Source: Candidatus Saccharimonadota bacterium (GTDB taxonomy: Bacteria > Patescibacteriota > Saccharimonadia > Saccharimonadales > Saccharimonadaceae). From it: a stretch of 37,134 bases of DNA. Both the position numbers and the translations under genes were made by a program. Positions 17,687 through 33,030 of the stretch are shown piece after piece; position 1 is the first letter of the stretch; each line of letters starts with the position of its first letter. The DNA lies in assembly GCA_017561575.1 (NCBI GenBank), contig JAFZBS010000002.1, forward strand, positions 1 to 37,134, read 5' to 3'. Under the pieces are notes generated by a model. The model had not been told where the DNA came from and did no database searches. It saw only the letters and a program-made list of their open reading frames with translations.

Positions 17687-18550
17687 ATGAAAATCACTTC
17701 CGAGCAAGAAATGTTAAACTATGGCAAAAAGTTGGCCACAACTTCTGAAGGCTCGGTTTTTGAACTTATTGGTGACGTCGGCGCCGGCAAAACCACCTTC
17801 GTACGTGGCTTCGCCGAAGGCCTTGGTGTCAAAGAAAAAGTCACCAGCCCTAGCTACACTATTTCCAAATCTTACGCCCTCCCAAACGGCAAAACTCTCA
17901 CTCACTACGATTTTTATCGCCTAAATAATCCTGGCATTATGGCAAATGACCTCAAAGAAAAAATCAAAAATGGCCATATTATTATTGTCGAATGGGCCAA
18001 TTCCGTCAAGAATCTCCTCCCCGAAAACCACACAACCATTACCATCACCACCAACCCCGACTCCACCCGTAATATAGCGGTCAATAATGACCGAAATAGT
18101 ATCATTGCGGGACTTCCGGAGGCTACTACCGAGGATGAGCACCCGAGCCCCGTGAAGACTGGAGCGAGGGACGCGACCCAAAATGATACTATTCGGACAT
18201 CATCAAACGCGACAGGTATCCATTTATTTCTGGACACCTCCACCCCTACCACTATCCTCAAACTAAACGATAAAACCTACGAATGGGAATCAAACAACGA
18301 TTTAGCCGAAAAACTTTTAAAATTCATCCACGACAAGCTTCAAGAAAATGGTAAAAACTGGCACGACATTCAAGAAATAACTTTCATGTCAGGCCCCGGC
18401 TCATTCACCGGTCTTAGAATTGGCGCCTCCATTGTCAATACACTCGCCCACGAGCTAAACATCCCCCTAAAAGACCATCACGGCAATCTTCACCAAATTA
18501 TTGTTCCTGATTACGGGCGCGCCGCAAATATCTCACAACCAAAGAAATAA
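17687..18550 (+). CDS. tsaE: TsaE-TsaB fusion, t6A tRNA-modification proteins, with a palindromic insertion at the junction
   Basis: The protein has 287 residues. Residues 1-132 are TsaE: Walker A GDVGAGKTT (29-37), TSPSYTI, HYDFYRL and VEWAN, the family order. Residues 178-262 match the N-terminal part of TsaB: FLDTSTPTT and MSGPGSFTGLRIGASIV. TsaE and TsaB act with TsaD to make N6-threonylcarbamoyladenosine at tRNA position 37. The TsaB part is only about 110 residues against about 230 in the full family, so the C-terminal half is missing. Residues 136-170 are encoded by a palindromic element (18091-18196) exactly at the domain junction. The last 53 bp overlap the convergent fibro-slime gene. 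Confidence 0.85.
   Translation: MKITSEQEMLNYGKKLATTSEGSVFELIGDVGAGKTTFVRGFAEGLGVKEKVTSPSYTISKSYALPNGKTLTHYDFYRLNNPGIMANDLKEKIKNGHIIIVEWANSVKNLLPENHTTITITTNPDSTRNIAVNNDRNSIIAGLPEATTEDEHPSPVKTGARDATQNDTIRTSSNATGIHLFLDTSTPTTILKLNDKTYEWESNNDLAEKLLKFIHDKLQENGKNWHDIQEITFMSGPGSFTGLRIGASIVNTLAHELNIPLKDHHGNLHQIIVPDYGRAANISQPKK
18091..18196. repeat. In-frame palindromic element in tsaE-tsaB
   Basis: The left arm 18091-18106 (CCGAAATAGTATCATT) and the right arm 18182-18196 (AATGATACTATTCGG) are inverted repeats differing by one base. The GC-rich core (18110-18177) is about 90% identical by eye to the core in lepA (26100-26168), including CCGGAGGCT, GAGCCCCGTGAAGAC and GGAGCGAGGGACGCGACCC. The element stays open in the host frame and is read here in the orientation opposite to that in lepA and recX. 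Confidence 0.85.
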
Positions 18551-24819: not shown

Positions 24820-26715
24820 CTAATCTCGTTTCAACATCACCGTGAACGCCTCAGATGGAATGTCAATTTTGCCAAATCTTTTCATCCTGGCTTTACCGCG
24901 TTTTTGTTTTTCAAGCAATTTCGCCTTTCTATCCCTATCGCCAGTATGGATTTTTACCGTCACATCCTTACGGTATGCGCCAATCGTCTCACGCGCAATG
25001 ATTCTTGCGCCAATCGCCGCCTGAATCGCCACTTCCCAGTTTTGTCTAGGTATCACTTCTTTGAGCTTCTTCGTCGTTTCGCGCCCAATTGCATCCGCTT
25101 CAGATCGATGGCACATAATCGAAAGCGCATCTATCTTATGTCCACCCACCAAGAAATCTACTCTTACCAAATCTTCAGTCTTATATCCATTTAATTCATA
25201 ATTAAATGATGCATATCCACTCGTTGCCGATTTCAACTGGTCATAAAAGTCCGTCAGAAGATTCGCCATTGGCGCTTCAAAATCAATCACTGCCCTATCT
25301 TCAATATAGCTAAGGCTCGTCTGATGCCCACGTTTCTTGTTAATCAAATCTAACACCGGTCCAATCATCGGCTTCGGCAAAATGATTTCACCTTTCACCC
25401 ATGGCTCCCGAATCTCAAATATTTCACTCGCATCCGGCAAATCCGCCGCTGATTTGATTTCTAATATTTCACCATTGTTAAGCACTACTTCATAATTTGT
25501 CGATGGATTTGTTACAATCAAATCAAGTTTAAATTCTCTCTCAAGCCTCTCCTTGATGATGTCCATATGAAGTAGCCCCAAAAACCCAATCCGAAGTCCA
25601 AATCCGAGAACCGGTGAATTTTCCGGCTCATAGCGGAGCGCCGAGTCCGACAAAGCCAATTTTTCAATCGCTTCCTTTAGCTCCTTATACTGATCATTTG
25701 AAACCGGGAAAAACCCTGCATACACAAATGGTAACACATTCTTATACCCCGGCAATGGCTCGATAGCTGGATTTTTTACCAACGTCACCGTATCACCTAC
25801 TTTTGCTTCACGTGTCGTCTTAAGATTCGTTACAATATACCCAATTTGCCCCTCGGTCAGCTTCTCTTGCGGTTTCATCTTTGGCGTCAAAATTCCTACC
25901 TCAAGCGCGAGACCTTTTACGCCTGCCGCCATCATCAAAATCTCCGCATTTTTTGGTATCTCCCCCTCAAATACTCTCACATACAACACTACCCCTCGAT
26001 AATCGTCAAAATACGAGTCGAATATCAGCGCTTTAGTCGGTGACTGAACCGAAATCGATTGCAAAGTGTTTTGAGGACCTTGGCCCAATGTTGTTTCGGG
26101 GGATTCCGGAGGCTGCTGCCGAGGATTAGCGCCCGAGCCCCGTGAAGACGGGAGCGAGGGACGCGACCCCGAAACAATCGTTGGGCAAGGTCCTTCAGAA
26201 ATAATTGAATCTAATACTTTATCGACTCCAAATCCAGTCTTTCCAGACGCTTCGATAATATCATCCCTCGAGCATCCAAGCAAATTAATAATTTGCGCCG
26301 CCGTCCCCTCGACATCCGCCGCCGGCAAATCAATTTTATTTATCACTGGAATAATCGTGAGGTCCTGCTCGAGCGCCAAATAAACATTCGCCAGCGTCTG
26401 CGCTTGAATTCCCTGAGTTGCATCCACCACAAGTACCGCCGCTTCCACCGCTTGAAGCGACCTCGAAACTTCGTACGAAAAATCCACATGTCCTGGCGTA
26501 TCAATCAAATTCAGCGTATAGCCTTTCCATTTCATCGTCACCGGAGTCAATTTAATGGTAATACCTTTTTCACGCTCAAGCTCCATCGAATCTAGAAGCT
26601 GCTCTTTCATTTCGCGTTTTTCCACTGTACCGGTAAGCTCCATCATTCTATCCGCAATGGTTGATTTCCCATGGTCAATATGTGCAATAATACAAAAATT
26701 CCGTATCTTTTCCAT
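24820..26715 (-). CDS. lepA: Elongation factor 4 (LepA) with an in-frame palindromic insertion
   Basis: The protein has 631 residues. The G domain has AHIDHGKST (11-19), a DTPGHVDFS G3 motif and INKIDLP. The LepA-specific C-terminal domain is complete (LLEKQKRGKARMKRFGKIDIPSEAF). LepA is a ribosomal GTPase that helps translation under stress. Residues about 174-215 (GPCPTIVSG..SRPSLPSSRGS..QQPPESPE) are not part of the family: they sit between the G domain and domain 2 (before KALIFDSYFDDYRGVV) and are encoded by the palindromic element at 26072-26197. TGGTATAAT ends seven bases before ATG without a clear ribosome site, so it is near-leaderless. Confidence 0.95.
   Translation of the reverse strand: MEKIRNFCIIAHIDHGKSTIADRMMELTGTVEKREMKEQLLDSMELEREKGITIKLTPVTMKWKGYTLNLIDTPGHVDFSYEVSRSLQAVEAAVLVVDATQGIQAQTLANVYLALEQDLTIIPVINKIDLPAADVEGTAAQIINLLGCSRDDIIEASGKTGFGVDKVLDSIISEGPCPTIVSGSRPSLPSSRGSGANPRQQPPESPETTLGQGPQNTLQSISVQSPTKALIFDSYFDDYRGVVLYVRVFEGEIPKNAEILMMAAGVKGLALEVGILTPKMKPQEKLTEGQIGYIVTNLKTTREAKVGDTVTLVKNPAIEPLPGYKNVLPFVYAGFFPVSNDQYKELKEAIEKLALSDSALRYEPENSPVLGFGLRIGFLGLLHMDIIKERLEREFKLDLIVTNPSTNYEVVLNNGEILEIKSAADLPDASEIFEIREPWVKGEIILPKPMIGPVLDLINKKRGHQTSLSYIEDRAVIDFEAPMANLLTDFYDQLKSATSGYASFNYELNGYKTEDLVRVDFLVGGHKIDALSIMCHRSEADAIGRETTKKLKEVIPRQNWEVAIQAAIGARIIARETIGAYRKDVTVKIHTGDRDRKAKLLEKQKRGKARMKRFGKIDIPSEAFTVMLKRD
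26072..26197. repeat. In-frame palindromic element in lepA
   Basis: The arms 26072-26101 and 26167-26197 are inverted repeats of about 30 bp with only a few indels: GAGGACCTTGG..CCCAA..TTGTTTCGGGG against its reverse complement. The core 26102-26166 shares GATTCCGGAGGCT, GAGCCCCGTGAAGACGGG and AGCGAGGGACGCGA with the tsaE-tsaB element. In the lepA direction the core reads RPSLPSSRGS; the recX element reads RSSHPSSRGS in the same frame. Confidence 0.88.
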
Positions 26716-31706: not shown

Positions 31707-32315
31707 ATGTTAGTTACCGGTTCACGCCTTATTGGCACACCAATTCTTAGCATGCAAGCTTCTGGAGCTATCGGTCAAATCTCAGGCTCCATTATTGACC
31801 CAGATACTCTTAAAATCGTTGCTTTTTATGTAGCTAGCCCGCTCATCAAGAATTCAGAAAACATCCTCGCTACCAAATCAATCCGCGAATACAGTAAATT
31901 CGGCTGTGTTATTGATTCTATCGATGAACTTGTCGCAAAAGACGACGTTGTTAAAATTAGCAAAATTCTCGATCTCAATTTTGATCTCATTGGCCTTAAA
32001 GTTGAGACCAAAAAAGGCAGCAAACTTGGTAAAGTCTTAGACTTTACTGCCACCGATAACGATTTTATCATTCAACAATTAATCGTCAGACGCCCCATTG
32101 CCAAAGCTTTGATTGACCCAGAGCTAATCATCCCTCGCAGCGAAATTGTCGAGGTCAACGATTACAAAATTATCGTAAAAGACGAAGAAAAAACTATCAA
32201 GAAAAAAGCCGAAACCGTTGATTTTATTCCTAACTTCGTTAATCCTTTCCGTAAGACCGAACTTTCTCGTTCGCCAGCTCAAACGGAAAACCCTGACGAC
32301 ATAGATACTGAATAA
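31707..32315 (+). CDS. PRC-barrel domain protein
   Basis: The protein has 202 residues from ATG 31707 (MLVTGSRLIGTPILSMQ). A longer frame from 31551 is only the shadow of truB. Two PRC-barrel-like units are suggested: GTPILSMQASGAIGQISGSIIDPDTLKIVAFYV (by its ends GTPILS and AFYV, about 10-40), and LIGLKVETKKGSKLGKVLDF followed by IIPRSEIVEVNDYKIIV (about 90-150). PRC-barrels occur in the photosynthetic reaction centre H subunit and in RimM-like RNA-processing proteins; the role here is unknown. A charged, poorly ordered tail follows. The final 77 bp overlap recX on the other strand. Confidence 0.75.
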   Translation: MLVTGSRLIGTPILSMQASGAIGQISGSIIDPDTLKIVAFYVASPLIKNSENILATKSIREYSKFGCVIDSIDELVAKDDVVKISKILDLNFDLIGLKVETKKGSKLGKVLDFTATDNDFIIQQLIVRRPIAKALIDPELIIPRSEIVEVNDYKIIVKDEEKTIKKKAETVDFIPNFVNPFRKTELSRSPAQTENPDDIDTE

Positions 32316-33030
32316 GTTTTTCGTCATCATATTTCGCCCGTTTTTTTGCAATTATTTTCATTATCTCTTCTTCGTCATCCCTCGCATTTAGAACTTCCTC
32401 TATAATTTTCTGCGAAATACCTTTTTTAAGTAGTTCCATTTTAAGACGCTTCATAGACACGCCTTTTTTTACAAACCTATTATCCACATACCATTTAGCA
32501 AACGCCGAATCATCCACATAACCTTTTTCGACCAGCCGCGAAACTATCTCGAAAGGAAGTTTAGAATCTTCTTCTGAGGACCTTGATGCACTTTCAGAAG
32601 AAAACTTAGAAGTGTCTTCTGAGGGCAATCCGCAGTCGCTACGAGGACTGAGTGACGAGCCCCGTGAAGACGGGTGCGAGGAACGTCCCGAAGAAGACAT
32701 TCTAAGTTTTCTATACAAATACTCTCGAGTCTCTTTCACCGACCTTGGTCTTAGCATCGCCCACTCTAGCGTTTTCTGATACAGCTTTCCATATTCCGAC
32801 TGCCTCTTATACTCAGAAAGCTCCGCCTCGGTTATTTCATTTCCTACTTTGATTTTTAAATCCACTACTTGAGAAACATCTAGCGAAAACGAATACTTTC
32901 CATTCACAAAAATATTCACCCGATTGGCATTCTTTACCCCCTGCTTCATACTGGTAATTTTAAGAACATCGTCAGCATCCCCAGTTTTCTTAGAAACTGG
33001 TATCTCGTCACTTAGCTTGTAAATATCCAT
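32239..33030 (-). CDS. recX: Regulatory protein RecX with a palindromic, Ser-rich insertion
   Basis: The protein has 263 residues. The RecX order is visible: NRVNIFVNGKYSFSLDVSQVVDLKIKVG, LEWAMLRPRSVKETREYLYRKL, then VSRLVEKGYVDDSAFAKWYVDNR, MKRLKMELLKKGISQKII and a C-terminal LIQYLCRQGFPFELA. RecX binds RecA filaments and modulates them; it is the third gene after recA and nudix. Residues about 107-158 (RMSSSGRSSHPSSRGS...SSEEDSKLP) interrupt the first helical repeat region and are encoded by the element at 32557-32711. It overlaps the NUDIX gene by 23 bp at its start and the PRC-barrel gene by 77 bp at its end. Confidence 0.88.
   Translation of the reverse strand: MDIYKLSDEIPVSKKTGDADDVLKITSMKQGVKNANRVNIFVNGKYSFSLDVSQVVDLKIKVGNEITEAELSEYKRQSEYGKLYQKTLEWAMLRPRSVKETREYLYRKLRMSSSGRSSHPSSRGSSLSPRSDCGLPSEDTSKFSSESASRSSEEDSKLPFEIVSRLVEKGYVDDSAFAKWYVDNRFVKKGVSMKRLKMELLKKGISQKIIEEVLNARDDEEEIMKIIAKKRAKYDDEKLIQYLCRQGFPFELANEKVRSYGKD
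32557..32711. repeat. In-frame palindromic element in recX
   Basis: The main palindrome has arms 32601-32625 and 32687-32711: AAAACTTAGAA..TGTCTTCT..GGG and its complement. Its core holds GACGAGCCCCGTGAAGACGGG and TGCGAGGAACG, matching the lepA and tsaE-tsaB cores. A second hairpin (32557-32577 with 32594-32607) reuses the left arm: AAGTTT..TTCTTCTGA pairs with TCAGAAGAA..AACTT. The host frame stays open. Confidence 0.85.

Follow-up and report, generated by a model that had tools for sequence, protein, structure and literature searches.

A candidate mobile hairpin family with locus-specific arms in a Saccharibacteria genus, and its copy at a TsaE-TsaB fusion junction

Here we describe a family of palindromic elements that recurs within and between the genes of a Saccharibacteria genus, one copy of which encodes the linker of a fused TsaE-TsaB protein. 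Our preferred reading, to which we assign a probability of roughly 0.7, is that these are mobile hairpins in which a core spreads from site to site, the arms are acquired by inverted duplication of target sequence, genic copies survive in frame, the core can flip, and insertion joined tsaE to tsaB.

The junction hairpin and its repeat family

The window, by which we mean the whole stretch of 37,134 nucleotides analysed here, belongs to a genome of 622 kb (G000) and contains on its plus strand a fused tsaE-tsaB open reading frame of 287 codons (17687..18550). TsaE, the P-loop ATPase of t6A synthesis, accounts for residues 1-134 (17687..18090) and is matched by PF02367 (residues 4-130, E 6e-32) and TIGR00150 (residues 3-133, E 4e-29), and a short form of TsaB with TIGR03725 and PF00814 matches accounts for residues 178-287 (18218..18550). 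The first-pass annotation had placed a palindromic element exactly at the TsaE-TsaB junction, and it does lie there: the inverted repeat spans 18095-18193, between TsaE (4-130) and TsaB (from about 178). Its two locus-specific arms, at 18095..18111 (5') and 18177..18193 (3') of the plus strand, are 17 nt each, 88% complementary and 65 nt apart, and between and partly within them lies a conserved structured core (18106..18183, plus strand; 87 bits with our covariance model, R1). The surrounding stretch, 18091-18196, corresponds to residues about 135-170 of the reading frame. It folds at -42.3 kcal/mol (z -4.8; none of 200 shuffles equalled it), and the palindrome outperforms shuffled sequence on either strand.

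In an AlphaFold2 model of the fused protein, computed from an alignment of 19 genus sequences, both domains are modelled well (pLDDT mostly above 80, and mostly 80-93 in TsaE), and residues 136-175, the linker coded by the element (18092..18211, plus strand), are predicted to be disordered with a pLDDT below 50. By this model, the hairpin-coded piece between TsaE and TsaB is predicted to form a flexible, disordered linker of some 35 residues. We infer that this linker is translated in the cell and that the fused protein is functional.

That TsaB is missing its C-terminal half, as had also been pointed out, is true but misleading. TIGR03725, the TsaB model, matches residues 180-261 and is covered at positions 2-88 of 212; however, unfused relatives with no element are equally short. 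The short form is common to fused and to unfused, element-free species and has a conserved end (PDYGRxANIS.PxK), and in the order as a whole the open frame of TsaB varies from about 106 to 181 aa, extensions included. Judged from these comparisons, the shortness of TsaB is genus-wide and unrelated to the element, which did not truncate the protein.

Six more places in the genome match the 106-nt junction stretch at the DNA level, two of them inside the window. One lies in lepA (26074..26194, core 26096-26173, plus strand) and the other in recX (32599..32712, core 32620-32695, plus strand); both are in frame and antisense to their genes, which are encoded on the minus strand (lepA 24820-26715, recX 32239-33030). 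Model R1, built from an alignment of 25 cores, has a consensus of 16 pairs, 11 of which show compensatory double changes, and it finds 25 copies in the window's genome and 43 in G067. Given the six further matches and the 25 core copies in one genome, the tsaEB hairpin is not a chance palindrome. R1 matches occur in 158 of the 174 genomes of the genus and, outside it, only in the same family (5 of the 156 genera of the order).

Each copy consists of a core of 78 R1 positions, about 75-80 nt long, with two inner stems and a closing stem that is G-rich on one side and C-rich on the other, and of flanking arms that pair with each other and differ at every locus. Beyond the core, the arms form a median of 19 Watson-Crick pairs, as opposed to 2 at random places (134 copies; pairs and mismatches were counted from alignments with equal penalties). 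An 11-mer within an arm is common to just 7 of 8911 pairs of copies, and among 61 within-genome pairs with a core identity of at least 0.90 (one of them 1.00) arm identity is 0.50, against a background of 0.49. Near-identical cores flanked by unrelated arms imply that the core is the spreading unit and that the arms come from the target site. In our model, the core would be the mobile, self-folding unit of an element confined to one Saccharibacteria family. At two loci of G021 (L055 and L064), both near contig ends, core and arms are alike and the outer flanks are not; arms may occasionally travel with the core.

Origin of the arms and turnover at shared sites

The genes for LepA and LeuRS offer sites at which copies can be compared with element-free relatives. 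In the latter, LepA reads ERGPxP, then about seven residues, then TRALIF, and many species have a hairpin exactly there. In the LepA hairpin the native GPxP codons make up the 5' arm and their inverted complement makes up the 3' arm, as in G113 (GGGCCAGAGCCAAGG / CCTTGGCTCTGGGCC). LeuRS has an insert in about a dozen of 57 matching genomes, the remainder being short at this place (EIDF....KITVFTTRP), and comparison of G017 with element-free G116 reveals that the native sequence ahead of the element, CAAGACTC, recurs inverted behind it; the native codons here are EIxF. Where it can be checked, in LepA and LeuRS, the outer stem is one native arm plus its inverted copy. The native side is constant within LepA and within LeuRS, whether the core is sense or antisense; we could discern no rule as to the side that is copied, and tests of codon usage and GC skew for the native arm were uninformative. 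For the window's tsaEB copy, the native arm would be assigned from relatives, none of which has a near-identical empty site.

These comparisons bear on whether complementary arms might predate the element, with the core preferring existing host hairpins such as transcription terminators. Several intergenic copies do have A-tract and T-tract arms, and some are located where sister species have a terminator hairpin, as at site S3, where the sisters are element-free. In LepA and LeuRS, however, element-free orthologues lack a long hairpin at this point, and the 3' arm is sequence that they do not have. Most copies, besides, are located within coding genes, and hairpins of 15-25 bp are unexpected there. 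We consider this explanation unlikely.

It is less likely still that the arms became complementary slowly after insertion, by compensatory mutation under selection for a folded RNA or single-stranded DNA. Compensated changes are present in core and arms, and on the element strand G-T mismatches in the arms exceed A-C mismatches (87:47 in one count, 24:10 in another), irrespective of gene orientation (27:16 sense, 27:15 antisense). This excess hints that the folded element strand may itself be under selection and that complementarity may be kept partly by function. Yet selection may maintain arms without explaining their origin: two copies at unrelated loci, whose cores are 100% identical, already have arms joined by 19-20 Watson-Crick pairs, and the 3' arms in LepA and LeuRS are inverted copies of native codons.

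In our preferred reading, flanking sequence would be copied, inverted, to the far side of the core on insertion, producing the locus-specific outer stem by what may be called inverted target duplication. A plausible route is fold-back ('snap-back') DNA synthesis, in which the end of the core would pair with its own start and prime copying of the adjacent host strand. We favor this route because it explains paired arms around identical cores, the combination of a native and an inverted arm, and, given flipping, the indifference to orientation.

Flipping is seen in a site-by-site alignment of four close relatives, which are 90-96% identical at most shared loci. The core has opposite orientations in sister species at sites S5, S6 and S9, and asymmetries in the arms are flipped too; LepA of G113 and G116, compared with that of G096, provides another core flip. 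The core would, in our model, have flipped between its inverted arms after insertion. At S1, S4, S5, S6, S7 and S8, sister species have different hairpin families at the same site. A second hairpin type, with a core like GGACCATAAGCTYGG..CCTYGAGYGYGTCC (L322, L318, L312, L319, L321 and L262), occupies sites of the first type in sister species and is also present in lepA of G001, and a third type, GGGAGCGCTCCGGGCCGC..GGCCGAGTCTTACTCCC, occurs at S5 and S8 (L314, L311).

LepA and LeuRS also vary in other ways at these sites. In six genomes (G017, G092, G019, G084, G149 and G068; L236-L241), lepA is in two genes, split at the linker that is the hairpin site of other species; the C-terminal half has its own ATG, and other sequence intervenes, with a reading frame of about 200 aa in three of the genomes. 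In G185 and G012 (L370, L373), some 200 additional residues occupy the LeuRS site; by eye they look like a Nudix-type domain, and hairpin sequence lies close to their end.

Persistence in coding genes and the tsaE-tsaB fusion

Across five genomes, 96 of 135 copies lie inside coding sequence, in frame and free of stops (60 sense, 36 antisense), and just two have same-strand coding flanks in different frames. Host genes include those for TrmD, cysteine desulfurase, LeuRS (two copies), AlaRS, PheT (two copies), ObgE, Der and DNA polymerase I, and most element-bearing host proteins still exceed curated family cut-offs. The in-frame bias seen in these genomes is the pattern that would be expected if insertions survive only when they are translated through. 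Genic copies, we propose, would persist only if in frame and stop-free, and would be translated as flexible linkers. In G006 (L025, L052), where tsaE is divergent from tsaB, a further copy lies in frame near the start of tsaE. The lepA insert of G115 (L268), a genome that is 69% complete, contains two in-frame stops, which may reflect a broken gene, a sequencing error or bypass.

Long, stable hairpins in essential genes, and the stops in the G115 copy, could also be accommodated if the hairpins were left untranslated, either skipped by the ribosome or cut out of the mRNA, in the manner of mitochondrial byp elements. Either process would lift the need to keep frame, and the ratio of 96 in-frame, stop-free copies to two out of frame therefore counts against both; we regard this as highly improbable.

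How the element relates to the fusion can be judged from relatives of the window's genome. In relatives with separate genes, the stop codon of tsaE overlaps the start codon of tsaB within the sequence ATGA; fused relatives have neither that stop nor that start, and a hairpin-coded linker lies in between. A single match covers both domains in 16 genomes, one of which (G041) contains a stop, leaving 15 true fusions. The junction hairpin is strong in 10 of these 15 (z -3.8 to -9.6), marginal in G078 and undetectable in G099, G102, G178 and G186, and it occurs in 3 of 36 unfused same-strand junctions inspected (G017, G062 and G172), in the spacer. The earlier proposal that insertion removed the tsaE stop and made the fusion is, overall, largely right: the ATGA overlap and the contrast between 10/15 and 3/36 speak for it, and the four hairpin-less fusions speak against it. 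The accompanying prediction, that relatives would have separate genes without the element and fused genes with it, describes ten of the fusions and is contradicted by four fusions without a hairpin and three unfused junctions with one. In its strict form, fusion only with the element, the claim is formally refuted by the four hairpin-less genomes. These four suggest either that the element is not the sole possible route to fusion or that it has eroded there.

The hairpin-less fusions are also what would be expected if loss of the stop codon had fused the genes before the element invaded a permissive linker. In keeping with this, the same linkers are hit repeatedly, including by different hairpin families. 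Genes overlapped at ATGA, however, offer no linker to invade, and the linkers of G099, G102 and G186 (105, 108 and 111 nt) are about as long as the hairpin-derived ones of G043, G131 and G158 (105 nt each). Moreover, G131 and G113, both fused and hairpin-bearing, are nested beside close unfused sisters without a junction hairpin (G151 and G116; branch support 98 and 99). This order of events seems to us rather unlikely. Well-supported branches of the LepA tree force at least five changes of fusion label, and fusion has occurred repeatedly; the TsaE/TsaB tree is poorly resolved. The most economical reading of these patterns is that these repeated fusions would have come about through insertion at the ATGA overlap, with some linkers later eroded. 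In the window, such an insertion would have removed the tsaE stop together with the tsaB start, leaving the two proteins joined by the disordered linker.

Relation to known palindromic elements

We read the family as resembling the Rickettsia palindromic elements (RPEs), with target-derived arms as a new feature. In RPEs, the palindromic sequence is shared between the copies of a family. Several RPE families are described, lying in frame in unrelated, often essential genes and translated with them (PMC10969869, PMC6649704). By description, RPEs are the nearest known system, the likeness being repeated palindromes in frame in unrelated coding genes; unlike in RPEs, the copies have just the core in common, each locus has its own, apparently target-derived outer stem, the core inverts at its site, and the host belongs to the Saccharibacteria. 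In nematomorph mitochondria, coding palindromes have arms of translated host sequence, and template switching has been suggested to maintain them (PMC6649704). Host-coded arms are common to both; of the two, only the Saccharibacteria element has a conserved mobile core and forms a repeat family. In Magnusiomyces capitatus mitochondria, byp hairpins are transcribed and then bypassed in translation (PMC6649704). These too are many hairpins within coding genes, whereas the Saccharibacteria copies stay in frame and stop-free (96, against 2 that are frame-shifted).

REP/RAYT palindromes and MITEs are likewise short, non-autonomous, structured repeats of many copies. REPs lie mostly outside genes and depend on a Y1 transposase, and MITEs have shared terminal repeats. 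The Saccharibacteria copies, in contrast to REPs, are mostly intragenic (96/135 in frame), and Y1 is absent from the window's genome; we rejected a Y1/RAYT mobilizer on its distribution, PF01797 occurring in 8 of 174 genomes of the genus and not in G000. No mobilizing enzyme was identified. In contrast to MITEs of DDE transposons, outer arms are not conserved between copies, and in a non-systematic look at the site alignments we noticed no short direct target duplications. No Rfam family reached its gathering threshold anywhere in the window, and the element itself, searched at four loci, had no Rfam hit with E <= 1; four loci with other hairpin types yielded nothing except an unrelated L10 leader. 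The open literature yielded no paper on elements of this kind in Saccharibacteria or CPR, which is weak evidence of absence, as subscription literature was mostly outside the search. The locus-specific outer stem, target-derived where it could be compared, sets the family apart from known hairpin elements. Whether the family represents a new class, one that would insert as a folded single strand, copy its neighbor inverted as an outer stem, flip, and repeatedly make linkers and fusions in a reduced genome, is in our estimation an even question.

Palindromic elements that are part of protein-coding genes have, to our knowledge, been described mainly in Rickettsia. The present family would be an independent one, with dozens of copies per genome of 0.6-0.9 Mb in genes for aminoacyl-tRNA synthetases, GTPases, DNA polymerase I and t6A enzymes. 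If arms are target-derived, they would record how each copy entered its site, and the mechanism by which such elements move, long an open question, could then be tested directly. As a natural experiment, the family would also show how insertions give rise to linkers, to fused genes and perhaps to split ones, as where LepA is split at the hairpin site.
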